Positions 17,948 through 20,558 of a DNA stretch of 64,000 bases are shown piece by piece. The stretch covers positions 868,001-932,000 of the forward strand of contig CANMFX010000002.1 of NCBI GenBank assembly GCA_947497315.1. Reading direction: 5' to 3'. The translations under genes and the position numbers were made by a program. The stretch's first letter is position 1. Every line of letters begins with the position of its first letter. The DNA is from an uncultured Sphingomonadaceae bacterium (lineage in GTDB: Bacteria; Pseudomonadota; Alphaproteobacteria; Sphingomonadales; Sphingomonadaceae). The notes under the pieces are model-generated. The model did no database searches. It was not told where the DNA came from and saw nothing but the letters and a program-made list of their open reading frames with translations.

Positions 17948-17971
17948 AGGTTAGCGACAAGGTTTTGATTT

Positions 17972-18039
17972 CCTCTCCCCTTGAGGGAGAGGACAGATTT
18001 GCTTGCGAACCTGTTCGTTAGAAAATCTTGGTGAGGGGT
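17972..18039 (+). repeat. Left-end palindromic repeat L1
   Basis: A 68-base unit that begins with the hairpin CCTCTCCC-CTTGA-GGGAGAGG (17972-17992) and ends in CTTGGTGAGGGGT. It is nearly identical to L2 at 19807-19874, including the middle CGTTAGAAAATCTTGGTG. Read on the other strand, its ends match the right-end units (ACCCCTCACCAA ... GGGGAGAGG). It stands 18 bases before the ATG of a deleted DUF559 gene. Confidence 0.9.
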
Positions 18040-18057
18040 AGAGGCGGAACGTAACCG

Positions 18058-18231
18058 ATGTCCAAATATGACTCTATCACCCTCAGACGCGCTAAAAATT
18101 TGCGCCGGGAATTGACCCCGCAAGAACGAGTTTTGTGGAGGCGCCTCCGCAACGAGATAAACAAGAATTTGGAGGGAGTTTTGAGAGCGAATTGGGCGCA
18201 CTTACTCAGACCCCTCACCAACGTCGCCTAA
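18058..18231 (+). pseudogene. Internally deleted DUF559 endonuclease-like gene
   Basis: A 57-codon frame. Its first 31 residues (…LRRELTPQERVLWRRLR) match residues 1-31 of the intact DUF559 protein at 19890. It then continues with NEINKNLEGVL, matching residues 95-105. Residues 32-94, the whole predicted nuclease core, are missing by an in-frame deletion. A further 2-base difference near the end shifts the frame, so the tail reads PLTNVA where the intact copy has the PSPTSPN frame. It lies between repeats L1 and R1 in the pdhC-lpd gap. It cannot be an active nuclease; it looks like a non-autonomous derivative of the neighbouring element. Confidence 0.85.
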
Positions 18232-18278
18232 GCAATAAATTGCTAAGGCTTTGGTATCCTCTCCCTCAAGGGGAGAGG
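18210..18278 (+). repeat. Right-end palindromic repeat R1
   Basis: A 69-base unit starting ACCCCTCACCAACGTCGCCTAA and ending in the hairpin CCTCTCCC-TCAAG-GGGAGAGG. Its first bases form the stop region of the deleted DUF559 frame. It ends 21 bases before the lpd start codon. The middle (AGCAATAAATTGCTAAGGC) differs from R2/R3 but keeps a small inner stem, GCAATAAATTGC. Confidence 0.9.
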
Positions 18279-18298
18279 ACAATAGGCAAAGGAATATA

Positions 18299-19696
18299 AT
18301 GACTAAATCTTACGACCTCATCATCCTCGGCTCCGGTCCCGGCGGCTATGTCGCGGCGATCCGCGCATCGCAACTCGGGCTGAAAACCGCTATCGTCGAA
18401 CGCGAAAATCTTGGTGGCATCTGTCTGAACTGGGGTTGTATACCGACCAAGGCGCTACTGCGTTCCGCCGAAATCTTCCACAATATGAAACATGCTGCGG
18501 ACTATGGTCTGGCGGCGGAGAAAATCAGTGCGGATCTCGATGCGGTGGTCAAACGCTCTCGCGGAGTGGCCAAACAGCTGAACCAGGGCGTCACGCATCT
18601 GATGAAGAAGAATAAGATTGATGTCTTGATGGGCGACGGCAAGATTGTCGAAAAGGGCAAGGTCGCCGTCAAGACCGAGAAGGGCGAAGAAGAGCTCACC
18701 GCCAAGAATATCATCATCGCCACCGGCGCCCGCGCTCGCGATCTGCCCTTTGCCAAGGCGGATGGCAAGCGGATCTGGACCTATCGCCACGCCATGACGC
18801 CGCCGGAAATGCCCAAGAAACTGCTGGTTATCGGCTCCGGCGCGATCGGGATCGAGTTTGCCAGCTTCTACAACGACATGGGCGCGGACGTGACCGTGGT
18901 CGAGATGATGGATCGCGTCGTTCCGGTAGAAGATGAGGAAATCTCGAAATTCCTCGAAAAGTCGCTGAAGAAGCAGGGCATGACCATCATGACCGGCGCT
19001 GGCGTCAAAAGCATCGAGACATCGGCCAAGGGCGTCAAGGCGGAGATTGAGGACAGCAAGGGCAAGAAAGCCAGCCATGACTTCAGTCACGTCATTGTCG
19101 CGGTCGGCATCCAGCCCAATGTCGAAACGGTCGGTCTGGACGAACTGGGAATCGAGCCGGACGAGCGCTTCCATATCAAGACCGATGCGATGTGCCGGAC
19201 CAATGTCGAGGGCATTTATGCCATTGGTGATGTCACCGGCGGACCGTGGCTGGCGCACAAGGCCAGTCATGAAGGCGTCATCGCGGTGGAAGCGATAGCA
19301 GGCGGCCACCCGCATGCCATGGATGTAAACAATATCCCCGGCTGTACCTATTGCCATCCCCAGATTGCCAGCGTCGGTCTGACCGAAGCCAAGGCCAAAG
19401 AAGCGGGTCATGACGTCAAAGTCGGTAATTTCCCGTTTATCGGCAATGGTAAAGCCATCGCTCTGGGCGAAACCGAAGGTTTTGTGAAAACCGTATTTGA
19501 CGCGAAAACCGGAGAATTACTGGGCGCGCATATGATCGGGGCCGAGGTCACAGAGCTGATTCAAGGCTATACCGTCGGCAAGACGCTGGAAACGACCGAA
19601 GCGGAACTGATGAACACGGTCTTCCCGCATCCGACACTCAGCGAAATGATGCATGAAAGCGTGCTCGACGCCTATGAGCGGGTTTTGCATATGTGA
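18299..19696 (+). CDS. lpdA: Dihydrolipoamide dehydrogenase (E3)
   Basis: A 465-residue FAD/NAD disulfide oxidoreductase that reoxidises the lipoyl groups of the pyruvate dehydrogenase complex. FAD-binding GSGPGGY is near residue 11, the redox motif GGICLNWGCIPTK is at about residues 37-49, NAD-binding GSGAIGIE is mid-protein, and the dimer-interface catalytic HPHPTLSE-like motif is present as FPHPTLSEMMHE near the C-terminus. I start it at ATG 18299, which has AAAGGA upstream; the frame is open earlier but only through repeat R1. Repeats flank the gene on both sides. Confidence 0.96.
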   Translation: MTKSYDLIILGSGPGGYVAAIRASQLGLKTAIVERENLGGICLNWGCIPTKALLRSAEIFHNMKHAADYGLAAEKISADLDAVVKRSRGVAKQLNQGVTHLMKKNKIDVLMGDGKIVEKGKVAVKTEKGEEELTAKNIIIATGARARDLPFAKADGKRIWTYRHAMTPPEMPKKLLVIGSGAIGIEFASFYNDMGADVTVVEMMDRVVPVEDEEISKFLEKSLKKQGMTIMTGAGVKSIETSAKGVKAEIEDSKGKKASHDFSHVIVAVGIQPNVETVGLDELGIEPDERFHIKTDAMCRTNVEGIYAIGDVTGGPWLAHKASHEGVIAVEAIAGGHPHAMDVNNIPGCTYCHPQIASVGLTEAKAKEAGHDVKVGNFPFIGNGKAIALGETEGFVKTVFDAKTGELLGAHMIGAEVTELIQGYTVGKTLETTEAELMNTVFPHPTLSEMMHESVLDAYERVLHM

Positions 19697-19705
19697 TCAG
19701 ACGTT

Positions 19706-19775
19706 ACCCCCTCACCAACGTCGCCTAACCGCCTAGGGCGCTGAGGCTTTGGTTTCCTCTCCCTCAAGGGAGAGG
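19706..19775 (+). repeat. Right-end palindromic repeat R2 (unpaired)
   Basis: A 70-base right-end unit nine bases after the lpd stop. It begins ACCCCCTCACCAACGTCGCC and ends in CCTCTCCC-TCAA-GGGAGAGG. Its centre CCGCCTAGGGCGCTGAGGC parallels R3. No left-end partner lies immediately upstream, so it is either a remnant or one side of an inverted R2-L2 pair with a 31-base spacer. Confidence 0.85.
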
Positions 19776-19806
19776 AGGGTTGTTCTTTGCAGTTTCGGCC
19801 ACTTTT

Positions 19807-19874
19807 CCTCTCCCCTTGAGGGAGAGGACAGATTTACTTACGAACTTGTTCGTTAGAAAATCTTGGTGAGGGGT
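19807..19874 (+). repeat. Left-end palindromic repeat L2
   Basis: A 68-base unit almost identical to L1: hairpin CCTCTCCC-CTTGA-GGGAGAGG, then a middle with CGTTAGAAAATCTTGGTG, ending GAGGGGT. It stops 15 bases before the DUF559 ATG, so it probably contains or overlaps that gene's leader. Confidence 0.9.
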
Positions 19875-19889
19875 GGAGGTCAAGCGCCA

Positions 19890-20270
19890 ATGGCCGGATA
19901 TAAACCGCAAACTCTAAAACATGCCAAACAACTGCGTCGCGACATGACACCGCAGGAACGCTTGCTTTGGAACCGGTTAAGAGACCGGCAAGTGGGTGGA
20001 TACAAGTTTCGAAAACAACAGCCAATAGGTCCTTATATTGTTGATTTCATATGCCACGAAAAGAAATTGATTGTGGAAGCAGATGGATCGCAGCATTATG
20101 ATAGTGATCATGATCTGGCGCGCGATCAATGGTTGAAAAAGCAAGACTACTCTGTTCTTAGATATAGGAATAATGAGATAAACGAGAATTTGGAGGGCGT
20201 TTTGGAAGCTATTTTGATTGCGCTTTCCCAAAACCCCTCACCAACGTCGCCTAACCGCCTTCGGCGCTAA
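19890..20270 (+). CDS. DUF559 endonuclease-like protein (Vsr-related fold)
   Basis: A 126-residue protein of the DUF559 group, which is related to very-short-patch-repair (Vsr) and PD-(D/E)xK nucleases. Visible family marks are DMTPQERLLWNRLR (about 18-31), GYKFRKQQPIGPYIVDF (about 37-53) with the likely catalytic Asp, IVEADGSQH (about 61-69) with Glu/Asp and His, and the C-terminal LRYRNNEINENLEGVL. I start it at ATG 19890; an in-frame upstream start would lie in repeat L2. The last residues (PSPTSPNRLRR) and the stop are encoded within repeat R3. Its biochemical function is unproven; nicking of the flanking hairpins is an inference. Confidence 0.85.
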   Translation: MAGYKPQTLKHAKQLRRDMTPQERLLWNRLRDRQVGGYKFRKQQPIGPYIVDFICHEKKLIVEADGSQHYDSDHDLARDQWLKKQDYSVLRYRNNEINENLEGVLEAILIALSQNPSPTSPNRLRR

Positions 20271-20302
20271 GGCTTTGGTTTCCTCTCCCTCAAGGGGAGA
20301 GG
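20233..20302 (+). repeat. Right-end palindromic repeat R3
   Basis: A 70-base unit beginning ACCCCTCACCAACGTCGCC and ending CCTCTCCC-TCAAG-GGGAGAGG, with inner stem CGCCTTCGGCG. It provides the 3' coding end and stop of the DUF559 gene, so gene and repeat have evolved as one unit. Confidence 0.9.
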
Positions 20303-20362
20303 AAAAGAAGATAATATCGTGAATCCCATCATATTGGCGCAGATTGGGAGTAGGGATTTTAC

Positions 20363-20433
20363 TTCTCTCCCCTTGAGGGAGAGAAAAGACTTGGCTTGGC
20401 AATTTATTGCCTTAGCAAGTCTTAGTGAGGGGT
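20363..20433 (+). repeat. Left-end palindromic repeat L3 (diverged)
   Basis: A 71-base left-end unit with hairpin TTCTCTCC-CCTTGAG-GGAGAGAA and the end CTTAGTGAGGGGT. The middle (GGCAATTTATTGCC) is an inner palindrome similar in place to that of R1. It has drifted from L1/L2, suggesting an older copy. Confidence 0.8.
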
Positions 20434-20467
20434 GGGCGGCAAACACTGGCTTTGTGTTTAGACGCTG

Positions 20468-20538
20468 CCCCCTTACCGACTGCGACTAAGCACCTGCGGC
20501 GCTAAGTCTTCGTTGTCCTCTCCCTCAAAGGGGAGAGG
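20468..20538 (+). repeat. Right-end palindromic repeat R4 (diverged)
   Basis: A 71-base right-end unit starting CCCCCTTACCGACTGCGAC and ending CCTCTCCC-TCAAAG-GGGAGAGG. With L3 it encloses only 34 bases and no gene, so L3-R4 is an empty form. Its end abuts the ribosome-binding site of the next gene. Confidence 0.8.
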
Positions 20539-20558
20539 AATGAAAGAGGGAACAATCG

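Follow-up and report, generated by a model that had tools for sequence, protein, structure and literature searches.

A probable family of bacterial mobile elements with a DUF559 nuclease gene between inverted hairpin units

The window analysed here is a stretch of 64,000 nucleotides from an uncultured Sphingomonadaceae bacterium. Its genes pdhC, lpd and an amidohydrolase gene have seven repeat units of 69-73 bp each lying between them, and two of these units, in inverted orientation, enclose an intact gene of the DUF559 nuclease family. Judging from sequence, we put the probability at roughly 0.62 that the units and the gene belong to a mobile element family whose sole gene encodes a Vsr-like DUF559 nuclease and which has many gene-less copies. 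The features of the array (17971-20539) are as follows, with the evidence for each in brackets.

17971-18039, plus strand: unit L1, with tip hairpin, middle stem-loop and gene-facing G-rich segment (sequence, unit alignment)
18060-18209, plus strand: DUF559 remnant, internally deleted, which retains both ends of the gene but has lost its middle (tblastn, nucleotide match)
18210-18279, minus strand: unit R1 (sequence, unit alignment)
19707-19776, minus strand: unit R2, which stands alone upstream of the intact element (sequence, unit alignment)
19806-19874, plus strand: unit L2, left end of the intact element (unit alignment; alignments with copies in other genomes)
19890-20270, plus strand: intact DUF559 gene, Vsr-like PD-(D/E)XK (Pfam profile, fold prediction)
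20233-20303, minus strand: unit R3, right end of the intact element, which also codes for the C-terminal tail of the protein (sequence)
20363-20433, plus strand: unit L3, left half of the empty pair (sequence, by eye)
20467-20539, minus strand: unit R4, right half of the empty pair (sequence, unit alignment)

The units stand in the order L1, R1, R2, L2, R3, L3, R4 that a preliminary description of this DNA had given, and all seven were confirmed. Its account of the pairs was also borne out: L2-R3 contains the intact DUF559 gene, L1-R1 a deleted copy and L3-R4 nothing. Read from the outer edge towards the partner, each unit begins with a tip hairpin, continues with a middle stem-loop and ends in a G-rich segment. 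The tip hairpin is TCCTCTCCC-loop-GGGAGAGGA in most window units, and the G-rich segment is TTGGTGAGGGGT in four of the seven and slightly altered in R2, L3 and R4. The tip and, apart from the slight alterations in these three units, the G-rich segment are common to the L and R types; the middle differs.

The full element of the window spans 19806-20303 (~500 bp), DUF559 is its only gene, and the last codons and stop of this gene sit within unit R3. Alignments with copies in two other genomes (G009 and G023; L013 and L014) begin at most 6 bp from the edge of the L2 hairpin. The L1-R1 remnant matches residues 1-32 of the intact protein at 59% identity (tblastn), and a 43-nt stretch of it matches the 3′ part of the intact gene. 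By eye, the spacer between two units in another genome of the genus (G006, L043) is inverted relative to window positions 19777-19805, and unit arrays seem to rearrange through their own inverted repeats.

The window genome (G000, 3.42 Mb) has 17 matches to the tip pattern, 7 of them in the window array, and one match to the reversed pattern. The sequence ACCCCTCACCAA occurs 7 times, against 1 for its control. Given these counts, the window units are not a product of chance. Tips outside the array form five pairs of ~158-186 bp and two single tips; two of these five pairs have one tip with a mismatch and are each counted once among the 17. An Rfam scan gave just sub-threshold matches to microRNA precursors, which we took as chance.

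The two-sided arrangement recurs at DUF559 genes elsewhere. Loci were drawn from relatives, from 397 genomes of the phylum, from E. coli K-12 (ycjD) and from a named collection (the best 80 listed). The phylum supplied 30 automatic loci and 80 places among the matches listed; since the latter were taken strongest match first, the sample leans to typical family members. With duplicates, matches below 240 bases and short flanks left out, the first three sources gave 154 loci. The two flanks share an inverted repeat scoring at least 18 in 98 of them, compared with 4/154 for reversed flanks and 19/154 for swapped partners, and with shuffled means of 0. A same-strand comparison of the flanks also scores high (64/154 loci), and is unusable as a control because the tips are palindromes. 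For the named set, the inverted repeat is present in 58 of 79 loci, one of which is a run of N, versus 4/79 reversed and 15/79 swapped; another one was skipped, and L253 and L009 (of the first set) appear to be a single locus.

Explicit scoring of units covered 234 loci (157 + 77), with the N, skipped and double loci excluded and five loci with a flank below 150 bp kept. Units on both sides, with the hairpin outermost, occur at 131 of the 234 DUF559 loci and at 1 of 263 displaced control positions. Conversely, 8/234 DUF559 loci and 245/263 control positions have no unit at all. From hairpin to hairpin, the 131 elements have a median size of 449 bp (quartiles 428 and 484), and the gene-bearing form is itself multicopy in many of the 397 phylum genomes. 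Among the named loci, flanks of this kind occur, for example, in Sphingopyxis, Bradyrhizobium, Rhizobium, Xanthomonas, Pseudoxanthomonas and Thiocapsa. Such flanks were also found in metagenome bins labelled Chloroflexi, Desulfobacterales, Nitrospirae and Gastranaerophilales, although bins can be contaminated. The element family is real and very widespread. The top score of the named set belongs to Legionella anisa (L287), in which a DUF559 gene lies between inverted repeats of ~147 bp.

The hairpins also mark the boundaries of what is shared between sites. BLAST among the DUF559 loci gave 1230 element-only pairs and 144 pairs with homologous flanks (the pairs are not independent). Where element-only alignments run well past the gene in the direction of a recognised unit, they end within 10 bp of the hairpin's outer edge at 90 of 127 left and 170 of 223 right ends, and within 3 bp at 68/127 and 129/223. 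Two copies that lie 5.7 kb apart in one genome (G219; L104 and L125) match from hairpin to hairpin and nowhere beyond. A gene-less pair in the window genome (G000:C3:230382) has at least 56 whole-unit rows in 17 genomes, of which 55/56 start and 50/56 end within 3 bp of its hairpin edges; some of these rows are orthologous to each other, and two are one place on both strands. Among the matches listed, the closest to this pair (96% identity) lies at a different site, in G040. As a separate observation, the terminal units of L104 and L125 are more alike than the genes that they enclose, as if the ends had been homogenised.

Related genomes differ in which sites are occupied. At the site of the gene-less pair, 12 related species have the pair in four cases, a single hairpin in two and nothing in six. 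Around lpd, the 1.5 kb retrieved from each of 29 genus genomes shows a DUF559 match in one or both spacers in 11 cases. The upstream copy near lpd in G006, G017 and G047 is 52.7% identical to the window protein. The element is absent upstream of lpd in G045 and G046 (67 bp, at most a tip remnant), and downstream of lpd in G017, G047 and G011 (spacers of 117-128 bp). Orthologous sites in relatives do not all hold the same units, as they would under the purely vertical inheritance that the preliminary description had set against its idea of a mobile element. That idea is supported by the hairpin boundaries at unrelated sites, by the gene-bearing, deleted and empty forms and by presence and absence among species; mobility of the units is strongly supported on these comparisons.

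Three further observations concern the same sites. The two single hairpins (L350 and L351, in G017 and G040; 2/12 species) look like a pair collapsed to one hairpin, as does an E. coli allele (L208), and collapse of pairs may be the origin of single tips. The lpd-amidohydrolase spacers without the element (G017, G047 and G011; L039, L046 and L048) have another palindromic repeat, with CCCCTGCG..CAGGGG and CTCCTGCC..GCAGGAG arms. A second, seemingly unrelated repeat of ~115 bp, which matches many places in the genus, occurs near a gene-less pair (L310:1353-1466, G000:C1).

Tips and DUF559 genes also go together at the level of whole genomes. With one tip class counted across the 397 genomes, 83 have both at least five tips and a DUF559 match at E<=1e-10, 42 have the gene only, 14 the tips only and 258 neither (odds ratio 36). 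Within 17 families taken as holding both states (223 genomes), the stratified odds ratio is 29.7 (p 2e-11). The class of the hairpin follows the nuclease tree, with 27 changes over 125 elements versus 37-46 in 200 shuffles, and the left and right hairpin classes agree in 110 of 119 elements.

The G-rich segment of the units mirrors the purine arm of the hairpin and does not complement it, with A often becoming T. Examples of arm and third strand are GGGAGAGGG/GGGTGAGGG, GGGAGAAGG/GGATGAGGG, GGGAGGGG/GGGGTGGG, GGGGGAAGG/GGATGGGGG and AGAGGAGGGG/GGGGTGGTGG. All but at most one position match in 241 of the 334 units with stems of 8 or more. Over 43 distinct arms, agreement with the own arm is 0.890, versus 0.795 (standard deviation 0.0097) for permuted arms, and 0/5000 permutations reach it. 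For the 41 asymmetric arms, the mirrored reading wins over the direct one 28 times and loses 6 times. The direct (unmirrored) score is slightly above the permutations (0.832 vs 0.795; 2/5000 reach it), which is expected as the arms are nearly symmetric. Within the window, the tip arm of L3 ends in GAGAGAA, not GAGAGGA, and its third strand is TTAGTGAGG, not TTGGTGAGG; by eye, this is a mirrored G-to-A change. According to the available text of PMC4666352, a mirrored purine arm is the pairing rule of antiparallel purine-motif triplexes. Triplex-coded ends are supported by the covariation over the 43 arm types, and this covariation, with the sequence pattern, suggests that in the cell the G-rich segment can fold back onto the hairpin to form a third strand.

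The window protein matches the DUF559 profile (Pfam PF04480) with an E-value of 4.3e-40 and 136.4 bits (cut-off 20.6), and is the one DUF559 match in its genome at E<=0.001. The D, E, D, Q and H positions that are invariant across 40 sequences are present in it. Its structure model (predicted local distance difference test score 80.7) matches the DUF559 structure 3hrl in Foldseek with an E-value of 7.8e-9 and 47% identity over the aligned part. The second-best solved match is the homing endonuclease I-Bth0305I (PDB 3r3p; E 3.2e-4), and Vsr itself matched weakly (E 0.2). Further matches in a PDB sequence search (E 0.025-0.07) were weak, belonged to unrelated proteins and were taken as chance. 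The ratio of nonsynonymous to synonymous substitution rates is 0.10-0.32 where computable (G006 entered the calculation with its upstream copy, G046 with a truncated start); by this measure the gene is under purifying selection. At window positions 20166-20168 there is an arginine where at least 90% of 40 relatives have tryptophan, and the window's copy may be weakened by it. Published work, in the text available, assigns YcjD to the PD-(D/E)XK superfamily (PMC1189080) and ties a Caulobacter Vsr-like protein to DNA damage (PMC12907096).

E. coli K-12 carries both a DUF559 gene, ycjD, and a repeat motif known as PIT or TM_ECO. The available text of PMC4666352 counts 3610 copies of this motif in 262 proteobacterial genomes and 23 in K-12, where it is intergenic and occurs as single copies and as five inverted pairs that each combine an A type with a B type. 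It describes variation between strains, finds the motif linked neither to transposons nor to phages or plasmids, reports that it acts neither as promoter nor as terminator, and calls its origin unclear; the terms DUF and ycjD are absent from its main text. We found that K-12 ycjD lies ~170 bp from TM_ECO no. 9 of Table 1 in that paper. A unit overlaps the ycjD stop codon in E. coli KE47, within the loop of the tip; window unit R3 overlaps the stop in the middle stem-loop. No left unit of ycjD is recognisable in the K-12 and KE47 regions.

The ycjD region is covered to at least 80% in 3334 of 5426 genomes. In the three opened strains without ycjD, an efflux operon adjoins sapF in its place, with which the available text of PMC12817139 agrees, and ycjD was for this reason rejected as a clean empty/filled site. 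At the five E. coli loci with paired motifs, several of ten other alleles have no pair or a collapsed pair. The preliminary description had called the family undescribed. The repeat architecture is in fact that of the known PIT/TM_ECO triplex motif (PMC4666352), while no published link between DUF559 and the repeats was found in the literature searched, whose reach leaves out most subscription papers and preprints.

These results can be combined into a model. A full element would be one DUF559 nuclease gene with two inverted terminal units, the hairpin pointing outward and the third strand facing the gene. The gene-less pairs would be non-autonomous derivatives, and the single hairpins collapsed ones. 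When an end becomes single-stranded, for example in replication, the tip and the third strand would fold; the nuclease would then recognise the folded end and cut at the hairpin's outer edge. The freed element would be joined at a new site, or copied into it, without duplication of target bases, presumably by host repair or replication enzymes. That the nuclease is the mover of the unit is our best inference, and it is unproven.

Several observations weigh against a mobile element of this kind. The full two-sided architecture is missing at 103 of the 234 DUF559 loci. Element-only alignments end more than 10 bp off the hairpin edge at 37/127 left and 53/223 right ends, most of which stop short inside the element (24 left and 38 right, with 13 and 15 overshooting). 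The empty-site flanks at G000:C3:230382 come from a partly diverged lineage and do not fix the exact target; E. coli alleles were rejected as a definition of the target since their junctions are blurred and too diverged. Target-site duplication was not seen in the 131 elements, 4 of which have direct repeats of at least 6 within 15 bp, versus 3.0 expected from swapped flanks. A nuclease that acts alone, with no joining activity known for it, would be an unusual basis for a mobile element. Finally, of the 125 genomes with DUF559, 42 hold at most four tips of the single class that was counted.

The preliminary description had also named repeats that are widespread in genomes without any DUF559 gene as evidence against its hypothesis. 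This point stands in part: 14 of the 97 genomes with at least five tips lack a DUF559 match at E<=1e-10, although the association is strong overall and within families. At the loose threshold of E<=10, nine of these 14 show a match, mostly a weak one. The clearest, a 29-residue DUF559 piece (E 8e-7), is in G293 (L299 and L307), a genome with 151 tips whose other match is weak and interrupted by three stops (E 0.48); a simple pattern scan did not place either piece between tips.

Such genomes, with many tips and no DUF559, would suit another enzyme, for example a RAYT/HUH transposase, that moves the repeats in trans, with DUF559 as a passenger in one composite unit. Hairpin ends without target duplication also resemble IS200/IS605 and REP biology. 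However, a search for RAYT/HUH, which did not extend to other transposase families, found no match to Y1_Tnp (PF01797) in G000 or in 18 other genus genomes, among them two with many tips (37 in G006, 33 in G047); in all, 19 of the 32 genus genomes are without a match and 13 have one. Moreover, DUF559 is the gene inside 131 two-sided elements of a tight size range, albeit at loci chosen by DUF559, and the hairpin class tracks the DUF559 tree. We consider a mover in trans unlikely, and RAYT in particular was rejected, as it is not in the window genome.

Homing is an equally doubtful alternative. Here, the nuclease gene would invade existing hairpin pairs by cutting empty ones and being copied in by recombination via the L and R units, and the pairs would spread by other means. 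The fold match to I-Bth0305I is in keeping with this, as is the excess of empty over gene-bearing pairs in G000 (6 vs 1). By contrast, the interior of the window's empty pair is, by eye, unlike the edges of the gene segment, and the gene-less pair has sharp, repeated boundaries at its own hairpins, so pairs seem to move as units.

It is less probable still that nothing moves and that slippage in replication, together with recombination, makes palindromic repeats shorter, longer or inverted. Such processes could produce the collapse to one hybrid hairpin seen in the genus and in the E. coli allele and the inverted spacer of the G006 array (by eye), and they fit the notion that triplex repeats give rise to instability. 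Slippage accounts for loss and inversion, but not for the recurrence of one unit, identically bounded, at dozens of sites. Least credible of all are transcription terminators or RNA-stability hairpins flanking small genes, since the units, although intergenic and hairpin-forming, stand on both sides of DUF559 in mirror orientation, terminators need no third strand with mirrored covariation, and the related PIT motif has neither promoter nor terminator activity in the available text of PMC4666352.

A mobile element family with a DUF559 gene is the reading that we prefer. For a broader claim we would give even odds: that nucleases of the DUF559/Vsr-like type drive the movement of bacterial transposable elements of a new and very widespread class, whose ends are read as three-stranded DNA, and that PIT/TM_ECO and perhaps RIME elements are its gene-less progeny. 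If true, this would supply an origin and a mover for a repeat regarded as a triplex-forming curiosity, with a link to E. coli genome instability. A large nuclease family that still goes by the name "domain of unknown function" would gain a role, and the element would be the first mobile one, to our knowledge, with ends showing evolutionary covariation for a DNA triplex. The presence of both a DUF559 gene and the repeats in E. coli K-12 makes the hypothesis directly testable.

We now compare the element with known systems. The putative endonuclease NGO0050 (3hrl) and E. coli YcjD belong to the same DUF559 family, although YcjD has no recognisable left unit. I-Bth0305I shares the Vsr-like nuclease fold predicted for the window protein; it is labelled a mobile intron protein, whereas the gene here lies between inverted hairpin units with gene-less relatives. 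Like TM_ECO/PIT, in which a G-rich third strand comes after the hairpin CCCTCNCCC..GGGNGAGGG, the window units have, by eye, a hairpin and a mirrored third strand. They differ from TM_ECO, with its 9-bp stem and 3-base second loop, slightly in their tip sequence and by an insert of 35-40 bases with a second stem-loop. With this longer second loop, they do not fit the strict TM_ECO consensus (CCCTCNCCC N3-6 GGGNGAGGG N3 GGGNGAGGG), which some other DUF559 loci do match (e.g., L011 and L235).

The GGGAGAAGG/GGATGAGGG hairpin class presumably resembles the RIME elements of Rhizobiaceae. RIME elements are intergenic paired palindromes and are not known to be linked to DUF559. Classical miniature inverted-repeat and DDE transposons differ in their target-site duplication. 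IS200/IS605 elements share the hairpins at the ends and the lack of target duplication above swapped controls, but their TnpA HUH transposase is absent here; the gene of the element is DUF559. In REP/RAYT systems, a gene-bearing unit is accompanied by many dispersed gene-less palindromes, often hairpins in inverted pairs. The window genome likewise has dispersed palindromes related to the ends of its gene-bearing unit. In contrast to REP/RAYT, however, the enzyme would be a Vsr-like PD-(D/E)XK nuclease and not an HUH tyrosine transposase, the ends appear to carry a triplex code, and the gene-bearing form is present in multiple copies in many genomes.

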